From the IMG/VR virus record IMGVR_UViG_3300008117_006829, positions 1 to 24,018 of that record: a DNA stretch of 24,018 bases; one strand, given 5' to 3'. The translations under genes and the position numbers were made by a program. Under the pieces are notes generated by a model. That model worked only from the letters and a program-made list of their open reading frames with translations, was not told where the DNA came from and searched no databases. Source of the stretch: a virus. Numbering within the stretch: position 1 is the first letter of the stretch; every line of letters begins with the position of its first letter. Shown in pieces: positions 1 to 8,125 of the stretch.

Positions 1-2022
1 GTTAGATAAGAATACATAAGGAGGACGACCAGTGAAAACACCAGTACCACCACGAACTTGAGTTTTACCTGTACCTTTAACGTTCCAGTTAAATCCTAAA
101 CGTGGTTCAAATAAAACTTGTGTTTTAGGCATTGTACCTGTATTCCATTTTTCACCATTTGCAAACGTCATTGCTGTAATAGCTTTATTTTCTAAAGCAG
201 TGTTTTCAAAAGCAATAATGTTAGCTCTTAAACCAGCAGTTAACTTTAGATTTTTAAAACCATTAAACTCATCTTGTAAATAAAAATCAGTTCTAGATGA
301 TTCTAAAGTTTGCATTGGAGCAACTCCACTTGGTAAAGCAGAATAGCGAAGTTGGAAACGTGCAGGTGCAAAAGTTGAAGGAGCTCCATTAGCAGCTAAT
401 GATTGATTAGCAGCAGTATAGAAATCGTTCAAACTATTGAAAATATAAACACCATTAGATGCTGGGAAGAACAAGTTATTAGATTGGTATCTTTGGAAAT
501 TAACACCACCTACAACTGTATGTTTACCAAAATATTTAGTTAAGTTATTAGTAATATTAAATGTCCAATAATTTAACTTATTATCTGGGGTAAATGGATC
601 AAATCCAACAGATGTATAAGTAGCAGATCCCTCACGAATATCAATTGTAGGGAACAAATTACTCATATAAGCTCTATCTTCAATTTGCTTGTCATAAGAT
701 ACGATCAAGTTATTATGAAGTGTATTAGTTAACTTAGAGTTAAGTTCTAATACAGCTGAACGAGTGTTATCCTGAATAATGTATCCACTGTTTTTAAATG
801 ACATAGCGTTAAACTGAGTGGTACGGTTACCAGCACCTGCTGATTGTGAATTTGAAATGTTTATTTCAGCGGATGAGTTATGGTGAACATAACGAGCAGT
901 AAGCTTGTTTTTATCATTGATGTTCCAATCAACACGAACGAGAAATTTCTTAGACTCATTAGTGTTTGAATACCCCTCCCATGGTCCAGTTGTATAGTTA
1001 AATTTAGACTGCATAAATTTAGAAAGTGAATCCATTGCAGAATATCTAACTCTACTGATCTGAGATCCTGTTAAAGGTGATCCACTAGAGATCCAAGTAG
1101 TACCAGGTTCTGTTCTTTCAATTTGCTCATAGTTACCAAATACAAATAATTTGTTTTTGATAAGTGGAGCACCTAAACGTAAACCTTGTACTTTTTCATC
1201 AAATTTAGCTGCTGTAACTGTAGTACCACGAGCATTATCACCTACATAACGTGAAGAGTTATCACGTTGTGTTTGATAAACACTACCCTCAATTTCATTA
1301 GTACCAGAGCGTGTTACAGCATTAATACCAGCACCTGTAAATCCAGATTGACGAATGTCAAATGGTGCAATATTAACCTGTAATTGGTCAATAGCATCAA
1401 GTGAAATTGCAGAGGCACCAGTACGACCACCAGCTTGAGCTGAAGATCCTAAACCGAAATTGTTGTTGAATTGAGAACCATCAATTGTAAAGTTGTTCAT
1501 ACGGCTGTCTTGAGCGCCGAATGAATTACCATTACCAAATGGATTGTACTTGGTAATACCATCAATTGTTCTAGCTCCTGTAATAGGAACTGAGGTTAAT
1601 TCTCTACGAGTAAATTGTTGAGCAGCACCAGTTCTTTCTTTAGAAAAAATACTGTTACGGTTAGCTCCAACAACTACCTCTTTAAGAGCTTTTACTTCAT
1701 CAATTAAAACGAAGTCAATGTTAGATGTTAAACCTAACTGTGTGTTAACTTCAGTTACTTCGCCTTTTTTGTACCCGACGAATGAGGCATGAATTGTGTA
1801 AGGCCCACCTACACGAACTGCAGGTAAAACATACACCCCTGATTTGTTTGCAGTAGTAGTGTACTGCGTTCCAGTTGGAAGGTGAGTAGCGTGAATTGAT
1901 GCTCCCACCAACACTTCTTTCTTCTCGTTAACTACAACACCTGAAATTGCAGAAGTGGTAATTTGACCAAATCCAACAAAAGCAAGCATCATGAATAACA
2001 AGGATAAGACTGTTTTTTTCAT
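1..2022 (-). CDS. TonB-dependent outer-membrane receptor, Oar-like (3' end beyond window)
   Basis: The frame is open from the ATG at 2022 to the window edge, giving 674 residues without a stop. A signal peptide (MKKTVLSLLFMMLAFVGFGQ) ends at Gly-Gln, the usual Bacteroidota cleavage context. Residues about 22-115 form a carboxypeptidase-regulatory-like beta-sandwich (ISGVVV, then GAS, SGVYVLPAV, FVGYK). A plug domain follows at about 120-255 (MNNFTIDGS, APFDIRQSGFTGAGINAVTR), then the start of the beta-barrel. The last residues, RGGTGVFTGRPPYVFLSN, are typical of the Oar/OmpA-like receptor group, whose members are usually about 1000 residues or more, so roughly a third is missing. Such proteins import ligands using TonB energy or serve in adhesion; the substrate cannot be read here. 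It lies 79 bases downstream of a phage nuclease gene but has its own host-type promoter. It could be a phage-borne cargo gene, a prophage/host junction or a chimeric assembly. Confidence 0.93.
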   Translation of the reverse strand, partial: MKKTVLSLLFMMLAFVGFGQITTSAISGVVVNEKKEVLVGASIHATHLPTGTQYTTTANKSGVYVLPAVRVGGPYTIHASFVGYKKGEVTEVNTQLGLTSNIDFVLIDEVKALKEVVVGANRNSIFSKERTGAAQQFTRRELTSVPITGARTIDGITKYNPFGNGNSFGAQDSRMNNFTIDGSQFNNNFGLGSSAQAGGRTGASAISLDAIDQLQVNIAPFDIRQSGFTGAGINAVTRSGTNEIEGSVYQTQRDNSSRYVGDNARGTTVTAAKFDEKVQGLRLGAPLIKNKLFVFGNYEQIERTEPGTTWISSGSPLTGSQISRVRYSAMDSLSKFMQSKFNYTTGPWEGYSNTNESKKFLVRVDWNINDKNKLTARYVHHNSSAEINISNSQSAGAGNRTTQFNAMSFKNSGYIIQDNTRSAVLELNSKLTNTLHNNLIVSYDKQIEDRAYMSNLFPTIDIREGSATYTSVGFDPFTPDNKLNYWTFNITNNLTKYFGKHTVVGGVNFQRYQSNNLFFPASNGVYIFNSLNDFYTAANQSLAANGAPSTFAPARFQLRYSALPSGVAPMQTLESSRTDFYLQDEFNGFKNLKLTAGLRANIIAFENTALENKAITAMTFANGEKWNTGTMPKTQVLFEPRLGFNWNVKGTGKTQVRGGTGVFTGRPPYVFLSN

Positions 2023-2059
2023 GTGATTTGTTTTGGTTAAAAAATAAAAAAGGCAGGTA

Positions 2060-2090
2060 CAAAGGTAAAACATCCAATTCGAAATTTCAA
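2060..2090 (-). promoter_or_regulatory. Bacteroidota-type promoter for the TonB-dependent receptor
   Basis: On the minus strand TTG (2090-2088) is followed by 20 bases and then TACCTTTG (2067-2060). This matches the Bacteroidota primary-sigma consensus of TTTG, 17-23 bases, TAnnTTTG; the -7 box is perfect. The ATG at 2022 is 37 bases downstream of the -7 box, leaving a leader of about 30 bases. It implies transcription by unmodified host RNA polymerase, independent of phage late transcription. Confidence 0.75.
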
Positions 2091-2100
2091 GCATAAATAT
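2091..2100 (-). promoter_or_regulatory. ATATTTAT motif between nuclease and receptor genes
   Basis: The minus strand reads ATATTTATGC immediately after the stop of the nuclease gene. It is the same core seen upstream of eight phage genes in this window, but here it lies 68 bases from the next ATG and abuts the -33 element of the host-type promoter. It may be a leftover phage regulatory site marking the point where the receptor gene was joined. Confidence 0.35.
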
Positions 2101-2101
2101 G

Positions 2102-2884
2102 TTAGAGAACTTTGACCGATGTGGGTAATAATTCAGTCATAGGCTTGAAATCTGGGTTTTCAAGTTTAAATATTTCCTGTATATTTTGGAACATTTTAAA
2201 GTTTTTTTCAATATCATCTATGGTTTTTAATTGCCATCCTTTACCTTGAATACTATCACCTTTTCCCTCTCCACGAGTGGATGCTTTTAACCACAAGATA
2301 CCAGTACGCTCAATTGCCTCGTTATGTGTTTCGCTCCATGCCGTTGCATAGGCAGCTAACTGTAAATCGTATGAGGTATGAAGTGAATTAGATGTTTTAA
2401 TATCTAATAACCATAATTTACCTTGAAAACGAACAACTAAGTCGGCTGTACCAGCAAACTCATGTTTATCTGAAAATAAATGATATTCAGTTGCTACTAA
2501 TTCTGGTTTATGTGTATTCCAAAATTCAGCAAACTTTAAAATCATTTTCCAAACATCAAGTGAGTAAATGGCATTTCCAAATTCATCAATCCAATTAATT
2601 TCTTTTCCATTTAAAAAATTATCAATTGCAGTGTGTACTTGAGTACCTTCGGCTGCTGCTTTAGAGGCAATAATATCACTATTATGTCCTACATCTTTTA
2701 ACCATGAGTGGAAAAAGCTATTTTTAGGAAAATAATTTAAAATAGATGTTACTGAAGGGTAATACTTGCCATCTCTCCTATAAAACCTACTATCCAATAC
2801 ATTGATTTGTTTATTGTCTTCAGTGTACTCAACAATACGTTTAATTTTAGGATCTTTAATGACATTTGCATTTTTGTCAATCAT
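2102..2884 (-). CDS. PD-(D/E)XK nuclease, RecB/Cas4-like
   Basis: The 260-residue protein carries the ordered motifs of the RecB/Cas4-type nuclease fold: His84 in EGTQVH, Glu133, Asp148 in GTAD, the Asp161-Ile-Lys163 core (LLDIKTS), and motif Gln175-xxx-Tyr179 (QLAAY). Together these predict a two-metal DNA exonuclease or endonuclease. No helicase domain and no clear Cys cluster for an Fe-S site is visible. The start overlaps the stop of the primase gene by four bases (ATGA), so the two are translationally coupled and probably act together in phage DNA replication or recombination. Recombination-associated exonuclease is the likeliest role; degradation of host DNA is an alternative. The family assignment is firm, the exact role is inferred. 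Confidence 0.88.
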   Translation of the reverse strand: MIDKNANVIKDPKIKRIVEYTEDNKQINVLDSRFYRRDGKYYPSVTSILNYFPKNSFFHSWLKDVGHNSDIIASKAAAEGTQVHTAIDNFLNGKEINWIDEFGNAIYSLDVWKMILKFAEFWNTHKPELVATEYHLFSDKHEFAGTADLVVRFQGKLWLLDIKTSNSLHTSYDLQLAAYATAWSETHNEAIERTGILWLKASTRGEGKGDSIQGKGWQLKTIDDIEKNFKMFQNIQEIFKLENPDFKPMTELLPTSVKVL

Positions 2885-3822
2885 AATAATTGTAGTTTTT
2901 TCTCGATTAGTGTCTTAAGATTAAGAGGAACTGTTTTCTCGAGAGTGTTAAGAAATTGTTCAAAACCAATTTCGTTAGCGTCTTTTCCTTCCATTTCAAC
3001 TAAATACACTTCTTTACCATATGACATTAAAGTTTCAGCTTGTTTTAAAGCATCTTTTCTAGCATCATTATCTAAAGCAATATAAATACGATCAACAGAG
3101 GATTTAACTAACTTTTGCATTAGTTTACTGTGTAATACTTTACCAAATAAAGGTATAACATTACGTTTAATAGTAAGTGCATCAAATATTCCTTCAACAA
3201 GAATAATTGGTGCATCCCAATTTATATATAATTCGAACCCGATTACATCTTTAGCTGATGCGGGTGGATTTTTATATTTTTGAAGTGATGGTTCTTTATA
3301 ATCACGAGCAATAAAATAATTTAATTTACCATTTTCATCATAAGATGGTATAATAACTCTATATTCGTATTTTCCCTCCTTACAAAAACCAATATTGTAT
3401 TTTATAATATCGTTTTGTGTGATATTACGTTTTTTTAAAAATTTTAAAGCATGTTTTGCTTCAATTTGAGCAATTTTATCTTCAACTGGAGTAGTTAATG
3501 AGATAAATTCTTTAGGTAATTCAAGAGTACCTATTTCAACATGTTCCTGTTTTTTAGATGGAACAATTAAAATATTTAATTCATTAATTTTATCTTGTGG
3601 TGCCTTAATTTTTTTAAATAATGTAAGCAATGTTTTACCCTTAGCACCACATACCCAACAATGCCAGAAATTTTCACGTTTAGCGGTTGTACGTAAACTA
3701 ACCTCTAATTTGTTTTTATGATGCGTACAGAAAGGACATTTAAAAGCATAGTTGCCTTTACTAGTTGATTGTCCTTTACCTAACACGGATTCAGTTAGGA
3801 ATAGTAGAGCTGTATTCTCCAT
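2881..3822 (-). CDS. DNA primase (zinc finger plus Toprim), T4 gp61/T7 gp4-like
   Basis: This 313-residue protein begins with a zinc-binding domain (CPFC at 29-32, HCWVC at 54-58) of the kind that recognises primer start sites. The middle third resembles the N-terminal part of the DnaG catalytic core (IIPSYDENGKLNYFIARDY near 157-175). A Toprim fold follows, with Glu210-Gly in IILVEGIFDAL and Asp251/Asp253 in ALDND as metal ligands. There is no helicase domain, so it should act with a separate replicative helicase, as T4 gp61 does (342 residues there). It makes RNA primers for lagging-strand synthesis. It is coupled by ATGA to the downstream nuclease and follows the GIY-YIG gene after 27 bases. 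The ATG at 3822 is the only sensible start, because the zinc finger begins soon after it. Confidence 0.9.
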   Translation of the reverse strand: MENTALLFLTESVLGKGQSTSKGNYAFKCPFCTHHKNKLEVSLRTTAKRENFWHCWVCGAKGKTLLTLFKKIKAPQDKINELNILIVPSKKQEHVEIGTLELPKEFISLTTPVEDKIAQIEAKHALKFLKKRNITQNDIIKYNIGFCKEGKYEYRVIIPSYDENGKLNYFIARDYKEPSLQKYKNPPASAKDVIGFELYINWDAPIILVEGIFDALTIKRNVIPLFGKVLHSKLMQKLVKSSVDRIYIALDNDARKDALKQAETLMSYGKEVYLVEMEGKDANEIGFEQFLNTLEKTVPLNLKTLIEKKLQLL

Positions 3823-3849: not shown

Positions 3850-4281
3850 CTATAACAAGTCTTTAGTAAAGAATTTACCTAGTATGTTATCGTTATATGA
3901 TCTATCCCTACCAATTAATACTTCTTCTTTGCATTGGTAATGCATTTCGTAGTATGTTAGTTCTTTTTTTGTTTTACATTGTCTATAAATCCAACATTGA
4001 AAGTTCTCTTCACCAAATTCTTTAATATCAGCAAGTAATTGCTTATTAGAACCCCAATATGTTTTCCAATCGCTTTCAGTACGAATTACCTCGTGAGTTG
4101 GTTTACGACCTGGTCCTGTTTGTTCAGCAAGTTGTTTTTTGGTAAGTTTATGTTTTTTATTATTCCAATAAACCTTTTTACCAATATAAAATTTACCAGT
4201 TACATTGTTGGTAATTTTATAAACAAAACCATAATATTTTTCAGGATCTATTACATCCCAAGTTTTCCATTTAGATATCAT
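3850..4281 (-). CDS. GIY-YIG family homing-type endonuclease
   Basis: The 143-residue protein has the GIY-YIG signature near its start: GFVYKITN at 18-25, then KFYIGKK at 30-36. In place of the first Tyr stands Phe in GFV, a common variant. Later segments (SDWKTYWGSNKQLL, EFGEENF, TYYEMHYQ with a candidate catalytic Glu) fit the small phage seg-type and intron-type endonucleases. Such enzymes nick or cut DNA with one metal ion, and many are selfish elements that spread between phages. The gene sits exactly between the structural operon and the replication genes, and its start overlaps the end of the preceding structural gene by 11 bases, as expected for an inserted free-standing homing gene. 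It could also have been recruited for DNA repair. Confidence 0.8.
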   Translation of the reverse strand: MISKWKTWDVIDPEKYYGFVYKITNNVTGKFYIGKKVYWNNKKHKLTKKQLAEQTGPGRKPTHEVIRTESDWKTYWGSNKQLLADIKEFGEENFQCWIYRQCKTKKELTYYEMHYQCKEEVLIGRDRSYNDNILGKFFTKDLL

Positions 4282-6683: not shown

Positions 6684-7346
6684 TTAGATTGTTGATACTT
6701 TTTGAATATTAAGAGGAACTGTAATTCTAGCACCACTATCTCTACCAATTACAGTAATTGTAGTAGCTAAACTAGTTAATGTAGAACCAAATAATGTATT
6801 GATTGTTGTACCTGTAATTGAGAATGAAGTACCAACTTGAGTAGCAGATACTACTGTACCACTAGTTGTGTTAAGGTTTCCTAAAGGCTCAGTTATGGTA
6901 ATACCTGTACCAGTAAATGTAGATACTAAACGAGCATCAGCGATTGTTGCTGTATAACCGTTTGCCTCAAATGTACTTGTAGCACCTAAATAATTAAGTG
7001 TTTGAGGAGTAATTGTTAATGAAGCACCCTGGCGTAATGTGATACTGTTATAACCCAAGTTAATAACTGGGAGTTTAGAAGTACCACGAGGTAACGTTAC
7101 TAATTTATAGCGCATTACTTGTGATTCGTTTGGAATAGCCTCTAATACTGGTGTATTTTCTAATGCTTCACCGTAAAATGCAGATCCTGATGGGTGATTT
7201 GGATTATACAAAGTATAATCAATTTCATCATCAGCTAATGAAAATTGCGTAATTTGAAAAGAACCATCGTTACGAGCCAATAATTCACGGCCCTTCGTGG
7301 TTAATATTGCATCTACAGTGATCGTTGTAGGATTTAAAATTGCCAT
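6684..7346 (-). CDS. Phage structural protein (baseplate/tail type)
   Basis: The 220-residue protein has a conserved-looking N-terminal domain of about 85 residues (TVDAILTTKGRELLARNDGSF, then FSLADDEIDYTLYNP), a type seen in environmental T4-like phages. A Thr/Gly/Ile-rich beta domain of repeated short strands fills residues about 100-220. The change in composition after residue 90 suggests two domains, the second fibre-like or Ig-like. It is preceded by a 38-base gap holding an ATATTTAT element 21 bases before the ATG, so a new transcript may begin here. No known enzyme motif is present. The virion location is inferred from the operon. Confidence 0.72.
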   Translation of the reverse strand: MAILNPTTITVDAILTTKGRELLARNDGSFQITQFSLADDEIDYTLYNPNHPSGSAFYGEALENTPVLEAIPNESQVMRYKLVTLPRGTSKLPVINLGYNSITLRQGASLTITPQTLNYLGATSTFEANGYTATIADARLVSTFTGTGITITEPLGNLNTTSGTVVSATQVGTSFSITGTTINTLFGSTLTSLATTITVIGRDSGARITVPLNIQKVSTI

Positions 7347-7367
7347 AATTTCTTTATGTTGTATATA

Positions 7368-7377
7368 CTATAAATAT
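7368..7377 (-). promoter_or_regulatory. ATATTTAT motif, 21 bases before the 7346 start
   Basis: The minus strand reads ATATTTATAG in the short gap between two structural genes. It is one of eight copies of the same core placed just upstream of gene starts, and a candidate late promoter for the encoded gp55-like sigma factor. The longer spacing than at most other sites makes this copy a weaker case. Confidence 0.4.
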
Positions 7378-7384
7378 GTTAAAT

Positions 7385-8125
7385 TTAGAAGTTTCCACCG
7401 CTTAAACTATCTATCGCTGATTGTTCATTGATAAGTTTTTGTTTAACCTCACGAGTAATTGTATCGATATTTGCTAATACCTCAGGAGATAAGTTATTTG
7501 GTATTACAAAACCATATGATGTTTTACCATCACGTTTTTTAAACACTACGTGAGTATTTGTTTCATCTTCTCGTCTTGACAATACTAAAAATCTTTTATA
7601 ACTTCCTGATATTAAGTCGCTGGAATATAAGTTAGAAAGGGGTGTATCCAAAGTAACTTGTAATAAGCTTGCAGAAGTATTTACATTTAATACTCTTGAT
7701 TCTACATAAGTACTATCAGATAAATAAGTTAATATAATATCAAATGGTTTAATACTAAATGGATAATCAACATCCCCATAAGTACTATATAAACTATTTT
7801 CAGATCCAGTTAATGGATTAGGAACAAATGTATAATTAGTATCATGGAAATTACTTACACCAGGAGAAAATGTAATCACATTATTGTTTCCAGCTACTAA
7901 TGAAGATGATATAGAAGCTGAACTAAAATAAGGGCAGTTTGTTGTAACATATCCAATTGATGGAGCTAATGACGATACATTTAAAGCACCTTTACTTATT
8001 GAGGCAGTAAAGTTATTTGCCTCTGTAGTTCCTTTAACTTTAAATTTAAAATACAGTATATCTCCATCCTGTAAATTAACAGAACTTTGATCTATACTAA
8101 ATGATTTGGTTTGTGTAAAGGCCAT
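7385..8125 (-). CDS. Hypothetical phage structural protein
   Basis: This 246-residue protein is not recognised by family. It begins MAFTQTKSFSIDQSS, is dominated by predicted beta strands with many Ser/Asn, and has a more charged segment (VLSRREDETNTHVVFKKRDGK, shortened here to its key residues RREDE and KKRDGK, about 186-207) before an alpha-helical tail (EVLANIDTITREVKQKLINE). It begins 11 bases after the stop of the very large structural gene and has no regulatory motif in between, so it is probably co-translated from that message. Position between the 1225-residue protein and fibre-like proteins suggests a baseplate or tail-fibre component. Confidence 0.65.
   Translation of the reverse strand: MAFTQTKSFSIDQSSVNLQDGDILYFKFKVKGTTEANNFTASISKGALNVSSLAPSIGYVTTNCPYFSSASISSSLVAGNNNVITFSPGVSNFHDTNYTFVPNPLTGSENSLYSTYGDVDYPFSIKPFDIILTYLSDSTYVESRVLNVNTSASLLQVTLDTPLSNLYSSDLISGSYKRFLVLSRREDETNTHVVFKKRDGKTSYGFVIPNNLSPEVLANIDTITREVKQKLINEQSAIDSLSGGNF

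Follow-up and report, generated by a model that had tools for sequence, protein, structure and literature searches.

Phages are usually seen exploiting TonB-dependent receptors (TBDRs) for entry, not making them. The locus described here raises the question of whether a T4-like phage encodes such a receptor of its own, and of what that receptor would do for the phage. The locus lies in a single IMG/VR record of 24,018 bases, which was analysed whole and is referred to below as the window.

A receptor gene beside phage replication genes

The left end of the window holds the 5' two thirds of an Oar-type TBDR gene on the minus strand (1..2022; 674 of about 1,090 codons). The receptor begins with MKKTVLSLLFMMLAFVGFGQ and is cut by the left contig end, where its frame is still open. 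A gap of exactly 79 bases (2023..2101, minus strand), with an A-rich leader before the ATG that is common to relatives, separates it from a PD-(D/E)XK exonuclease gene (2102..2884; phrog_298, E 1.6e-37), which borders the receptor slot discussed below. Domain and family matches identify the next genes on the same strand as a DnaG-like DNA primase (2881..3822) and, near the slot, a SegE-type GIY-YIG endonuclease (3850..4281). Together with tail, baseplate (gp25), and endolysin genes, these belong to the T4-like phage gene complement that makes up the remainder of the window. The first-pass annotation had described an Oar-type receptor downstream of phage replication genes, and had called such a receptor unusual for T4-like phages. 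The 79-base distance to the exonuclease and the Pfam domains of the protein (CarboxypepD_reg and OMP_b-brl_4) bear out the description, and we uphold the remark on its rarity.

In the phage Oar-type receptor, the TonB box, the plug, and the barrel are all intact, as is a putative signal peptide. The latter (MKKTVLSLLFMMLAFVGFG; 1966..2022, on the minus strand like all receptor features given here) is read from the sequence: the N-terminus is hydrophobic and ends in FGQ, and its Gln (Q20), invariant in 62 aligned sequences, would be the first mature residue. It is followed by a CarboxypepD_reg domain (1705..1947; residues 26-106, Pfam E 5e-17) and by the TonB box region LKEVVVGAN (1660..1686; residues 113-121). 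Every phage receptor in the alignment has a TonB box that fits L-x-[ED]-[VI]-[VI]-[VI], and residues 112-122, the TonB box area, are a flexible low-pLDDT stretch in the AlphaFold model. The plug domain (1288..1647; about residues 126-245), which is the best conserved region of the receptor, was placed from the alignment and the model. The first part of the beta-barrel extends from there to the contig end (1..1287), with an OMP_b-brl_4 match at residues 236-668 (Pfam E 1.5e-34). Full-length relatives are ~1,090 aa long and end in RYTFGR or RYTFGK, with Y1088 and F1090 invariant in the aligned receptors. The Oar-like transporters of Bacteroidota and Myxococcus (OMP_b-brl_4, PF25183, with CarboxypepD_reg) have the same domain order and length, and likewise a TonB box, a plug, and a barrel.

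The protein that was folded is the receptor of locus L048, which is 91% identical to that of the window over the shared part. AlphaFold gives it a confident TBDR fold (pLDDT 86.3, pTM 0.82), and the model and the Foldseek matches agree on the plug-inside-barrel arrangement of a TBDR. At E <= 0.001, Foldseek matched 386 PDB entries; the best 50 of the 386 are all TBDRs, with FusA (ferredoxin receptor), YddB, and Cir at the top and E values down to 7e-36. These matches to a predicted model support a TBDR fold without naming a ligand. A sequence search of the PDB found no full-length relative, and the Pfam Plug model matches only L057 among the Oar types scanned.

The joint between exonuclease and receptor is genuine. 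Protein searches of viral contigs yielded 13 loci with the exonuclease as query and 47 with the receptor, and the two genes are also adjacent in some ten further viral contigs (L003, L004/L022, L016, L018, L019, L030, L034, L039, L044, and L048). An AAA/zeta-like kinase gene lies beyond the full receptor in L016, L019, L034, and L039; past this kinase, L016 and L039 continue with a nucleotidyltransferase-like gene and other phage genes. Those phage genes directly follow the exonuclease in the receptor-less L005. The first-pass annotation had suggested looking for the same junction in related phages and for what continues leftwards: the junction is there, and it is phage genes, not host genes, that lie beyond the receptor in the related contigs. 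Furthermore, gp23, the T4-type major capsid gene, shares a contig with an Oar-type receptor in 19 records (8 in a first set and 11 in a second; about 17 after removing a near-copy and a split gene). These contigs span 58-321 kb (e.g., 179, 198, 221, 245, 287, and 321 kb), and L039 (179 kb) and L048 (76.5 kb) carry gp23. L232 and L234 (321 kb) probably represent a single genome in two near-identical versions. Each record of the first set has a single receptor, that of L055 being split.

An assembly chimera or host flank, in which host receptor DNA was joined to a phage contig, would fit both the position of the window's end within the receptor gene and the normally cellular nature of outer-membrane receptors. 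The joint also shows local variability of assembly or sequence: L003 (9770-9826) is otherwise near-identical to the window, but ~56 bases of the gap at window positions 2023-2101 are absent from it and its exonuclease C-terminus is altered. However, the same order recurs in about ten other contigs, with phage genes on both sides and gp23 on the same contigs, and the joint is therefore not chimeric. Nor was a cellular gene of more than 59% identity found, this being the value for the closest relative among 297 sampled Bacteroidota genomes. On the strength of the conserved synteny we reject an assembly chimera, and we attach a negligible chance to host DNA at this end of the window by either route. 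The presence of gp23 and the conserved phage synteny mark the receptor contigs as bona fide phage genomes, and the receptor is almost certainly phage-encoded.

A slot with interchangeable cargo

The gap between the exonuclease and kinase genes is a receptor slot with interchangeable cargo. Across related phages, its content varies: some have an Oar-type receptor there, others a plug/barrel TBDR unrelated to it, others again a third TBDR coupled to a lipoprotein, and in some the slot is empty. The unrelated TBDR, of 838 residues, lies between exonuclease and kinase in L009. The third (class C, about 748 residues) occurs in L326, L329, L346, L348, and others; its stop overlaps the start of a gene for a 400-residue lipoprotein, for which no Pfam match was found. 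The slot of L376 holds a distant Oar-like receptor, 30% identical. When 78 exonuclease loci were classified by script, 8 had a window-type receptor, and many of the 78 had kinase, nucleotidyltransferase, or other genes directly next to the exonuclease. Class C had no match in the 297 Bacteroidota genomes at a strict E <= 1e-80, a weak negative obtained without a positive control. No SusD-like partner, as a SusCD pair would have, was found among the scanned neighbours of the receptors.

These other receptors also share contigs with T4-type capsid genes. L346 carries gp23 together with class C, as does L321, in which the class C gene is frameshifted (it is intact in L322). gp23 is present in L178, L191, L192, L211, and L213 as well, each with a distant relative (about 33-37% identical) of the L009 receptor; L191 is a record of 253 kb with two PF00593 matches and L192 one of 276 kb. 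At another locus, the receptor of L057-L060 is flanked by the same series of phage genes as in L021, L026, L029, L045, and L051, yet the receptors of L057-L060 come from another Oar lineage and share 37-39% identity with that of the window. Two Oar lineages at one phage locus and unrelated TBDRs at the exonuclease slot point to loci that are reserved for a receptor, though not always for the same one. On a broader reading, to which we give even odds, T4-like phages of Bacteroidota would maintain a dedicated locus for exchangeable receptors as a module for re-equipping the infected-cell surface, and the class of receptor, with or without its cognate lipoprotein, would change along with host or nutrient.

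A further observation concerns L309, where a small protein encoded after the exonuclease (6872-7447) has a signal-peptide-like N-terminus and the look of a beta-barrel; it is possibly another outer-membrane cargo of the slot.

The gap itself carries a strand-specific, phage promoter-like motif, ATATTTAT, just past the exonuclease stop (2093..2100, minus strand). Across eight loci of the exonuclease context, 39 of 178 genes have this motif upstream in sense orientation and 1 of 178 has it in antisense, and in the window it mostly stands 12-23 bases before start codons. Its overall frequency in the window is not raised (9 found vs 8.4 expected); it is orientation and position that stand out, and for this reason we read it as a promoter-like phage element, possibly a late one. 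ATATTTAT follows the exonuclease in most relatives, receptor present or not. The motif is the phage's own, and we find no support for the earlier proposal that the point where it meets the -33 box is the natural junction of inserted host DNA. The near-perfect Bacteroidota host promoter proposed at the same time is not retained either. Its claimed -7 box, TACCTTTG (TAnnTTTG; 2060..2067, minus strand), is probably a chance match: the window contains 34 copies of the motif where 40.6 are expected, so there is no enrichment, and the motif is not conserved upstream of the relatives' receptors. On these two grounds we reject a host promoter at 2060-2067.

Most relatives have a GC hairpin and a T run before the A-rich leader, which are missing or degenerate (shortened) in the window. 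Of 36 phage leaders, 23 passed a test for a leader hairpin that only about 4% of the other phage genes pass. Since 24 of 74 cellular leaders passed a looser test in which several start codons were tried, we do not hold the hairpin to be phage-specific, and that candidate feature was dropped.

The phage receptor has no fixed partner gene; a GroEL, secreted endonuclease, CpeT, or kinase gene follows it, depending on context. A phage GroEL gene is immediately downstream in eight loci from two contexts (L035:4019-5641, with homologues in L025, L031, L036, L038, L043, L050, and L053). Putatively secreted Endonuclease_NS and CpeT-like genes lie just downstream of the receptor at L028:11448-12083 and L029:13472-14089. 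One phage context has NifU/IscU-like, Fe-S biosynthesis (IscA-like), and ferredoxin genes near the receptor (L017:7657-8067, L025:9156-9479, and L050:16265-16582), which suggests iron-sulphur functions in these phages.

Cellular origins of the phage receptors

Window-type phage receptors are about 65-100% identical to each other and form one clade (SH-aLRT 100). This clade adjoins cellular genes of Bacteroidota and Saprospiraceae/Chitinophagales. The cellular Bacteroidota Oar genes align end to end with the phage receptor, at no more than the 59% identity given above; in a scan of genome contigs, cellular relatives were at most about 55% identical. What distinguishes the phage version from cellular Oar is its separate clade, its location in T4-like phage loci and, in the window-type locus, the phage promoter-like motif upstream. 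Among INPHARED phage records, only two matches were found, the better one 34.5% identical.

Other phage Oar-type receptors are placed elsewhere in the tree. Those of L291 and L292 (gp23 present) group beside Cloacibacterium, those of L057 and L058 fall among Chitinophagaceae, and that of L298, a putative phage on a 10-kb contig, is also placed apart. A single clade of all phage Oar receptors is rejected (p-AU 2.5e-82). The separate placements and this rejection indicate that Oar-type receptors have entered phages at least three times; as judged from sequence phylogeny, they derive from at least three cellular lineages. The trees are unrooted, with the midpoint used for drawing only, and in the trees so drawn the phage clades are nested among Bacteroidota genes, as expected for genes of host origin. 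Because the receptor's cellular relatives, the sole basis for a host assignment, are Bacteroidota, the host of this T4-like phage group is probably a Bacteroidota bacterium.

Selection and the possible role of the receptor in infection

Selection on the receptor is similar in phages and cells. Pairwise dN/dS is 0.06-0.17 among close phage receptors and about 0.04-0.13 among cellular counterparts, for which dS is high or saturated. Within the phage receptors, dN/dS is about 0-0.09 for the plug and about 0.03-0.13 for the barrel, and cellular pairs give comparable regional values. The resemblance of phage to cellular values implies that the receptor is maintained about as strictly in phages as in cells, and the frame is intact over about 1,090 codons in nearly all copies examined (except L055). 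Between L025 and L027, dS is 0.46 in the N-terminal part vs 0.09 in the barrel, an unevenness that suggests recombination inside the gene. Internal recombination, and the presence of the gene at several loci, could point to a passive passenger: a captured host gene, useless to the phage, kept by recent transfer or by hitch-hiking with homing endonucleases, of which SegE (3850-4281) and T5orf172 genes do lie near receptor loci. However, purifying selection and the near-absence of broken copies make this very improbable.

We somewhat favour, as the explanation of the whole, a genuine and swappable phage receptor that is made in infection and imports a ligand for the phage. Such a receptor would be made during infection and then secreted; host BAM would insert it in the outer membrane, host TonB-ExbBD would energise it, and the infected cell would take up a ligand that otherwise limits phage production. 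This ligand might be iron-, peptide-, or protein-borne, or else a fragment of a polymer, and a swap of receptor class would fit it to host or habitat. For energised import as the main role, we see an even chance. Two features speak for import: the phages retain the entire transporter, from TonB box through plug to barrel, and the class C receptor has held on to its lipoprotein partner, a pairing that, by analogy, resembles import pairs of the SusCD kind. The neighbourhoods of cellular homologues consist of housekeeping genes; no transport or catabolic cluster hinting at a substrate was found there, and assigning a ligand from cellular neighbours was abandoned for want of a clue.

The main rival, which we regard as possible but doubtful, is surface remodelling, in which the phage protein takes the place of host receptors or draws BAM or TonB away from them and so excludes superinfecting rival phages and bacteriocins that enter by host TBDRs. 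TBDRs are common phage and bacteriocin receptors, and the swapping of classes within one slot, the very conserved plug and TonB box, and the phage-type promoter motif upstream would all fit exclusion. Yet a decoy or TonB sink would need no constrained barrel such as the dN/dS values reveal, and no retained lipoprotein partner as in the class C pair. Known T4-like exclusion proteins, moreover, are small membrane proteins. T5 Llp, a phage superinfection-exclusion protein that acts on FhuA, is likewise a small blocker, whereas the present protein is a whole receptor; the trait they share is that both would alter the cell surface during infection. Less probable still is export, in which the receptor assists the outward passage of a protein of phage or host through the outer membrane, for example the neighbouring secreted nuclease or CpeT-like protein. 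Endonuclease_NS or CpeT genes with signal-peptide-like N-termini do lie directly downstream in several contexts, but only in some, and the window-type locus has the kinase next and no adjacent secreted-protein gene. Oar of Myxococcus xanthus, the one well-studied Oar, is required for protein (PopC) secretion, not import (PMC6434023). This speaks for export and against import; the lack of a fixed partner gene in phages and the setting of the homologues among housekeeping genes also count against import.

Import, our preferred reading, can be set beside known phage systems. The cyanophage gene pstS, a transport-related auxiliary metabolic gene of phages, is likewise a host-derived uptake gene kept by the phage. 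Unlike pstS, the phage receptor is an energy-coupled outer-membrane protein of about 1,090 aa, and its locus alternates between receptor classes. A phage-encoded TBDR has a precedent, since a SusC-like TBDR has been reported in the marine megaphage Mar_Mega_1 and in LR745206 and proposed to raise carbohydrate uptake (PMC9723777). Both that protein and ours are phage-encoded TBDRs, but as described the former is a SusC type in two megaphages, whereas Oar-type and other TBDRs are a recurrent, swappable cargo of T4-like phages. Among the BFVD structure matches listed, the only TBDR is the SusC of an uncultured marine phage, which may be the same protein as the Mar_Mega_1 receptor. In open-licence papers, a coverage by which earlier reports may be missed, Mar_Mega_1 was the only prior report of a phage TBDR found, and the Far-T4 and moraphage papers make no mention of TonB. 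In this incomplete body of literature, we found no account of T4-like phages with a recurrent slot for exchangeable receptors; what is new here is the exonuclease-kinase gap as a receptor slot.

That the receptor was captured repeatedly and independently, is under purifying selection, and swaps class within a single locus indicates that a new energised receptor is of real benefit to these phages. The large T4-like phages that carry the receptor probably remodel the uptake or surface display of the infected cell. This matters for how nutrients limit infection in natural waters, for competition among phages, and for the flow of receptor genes between bacteria.
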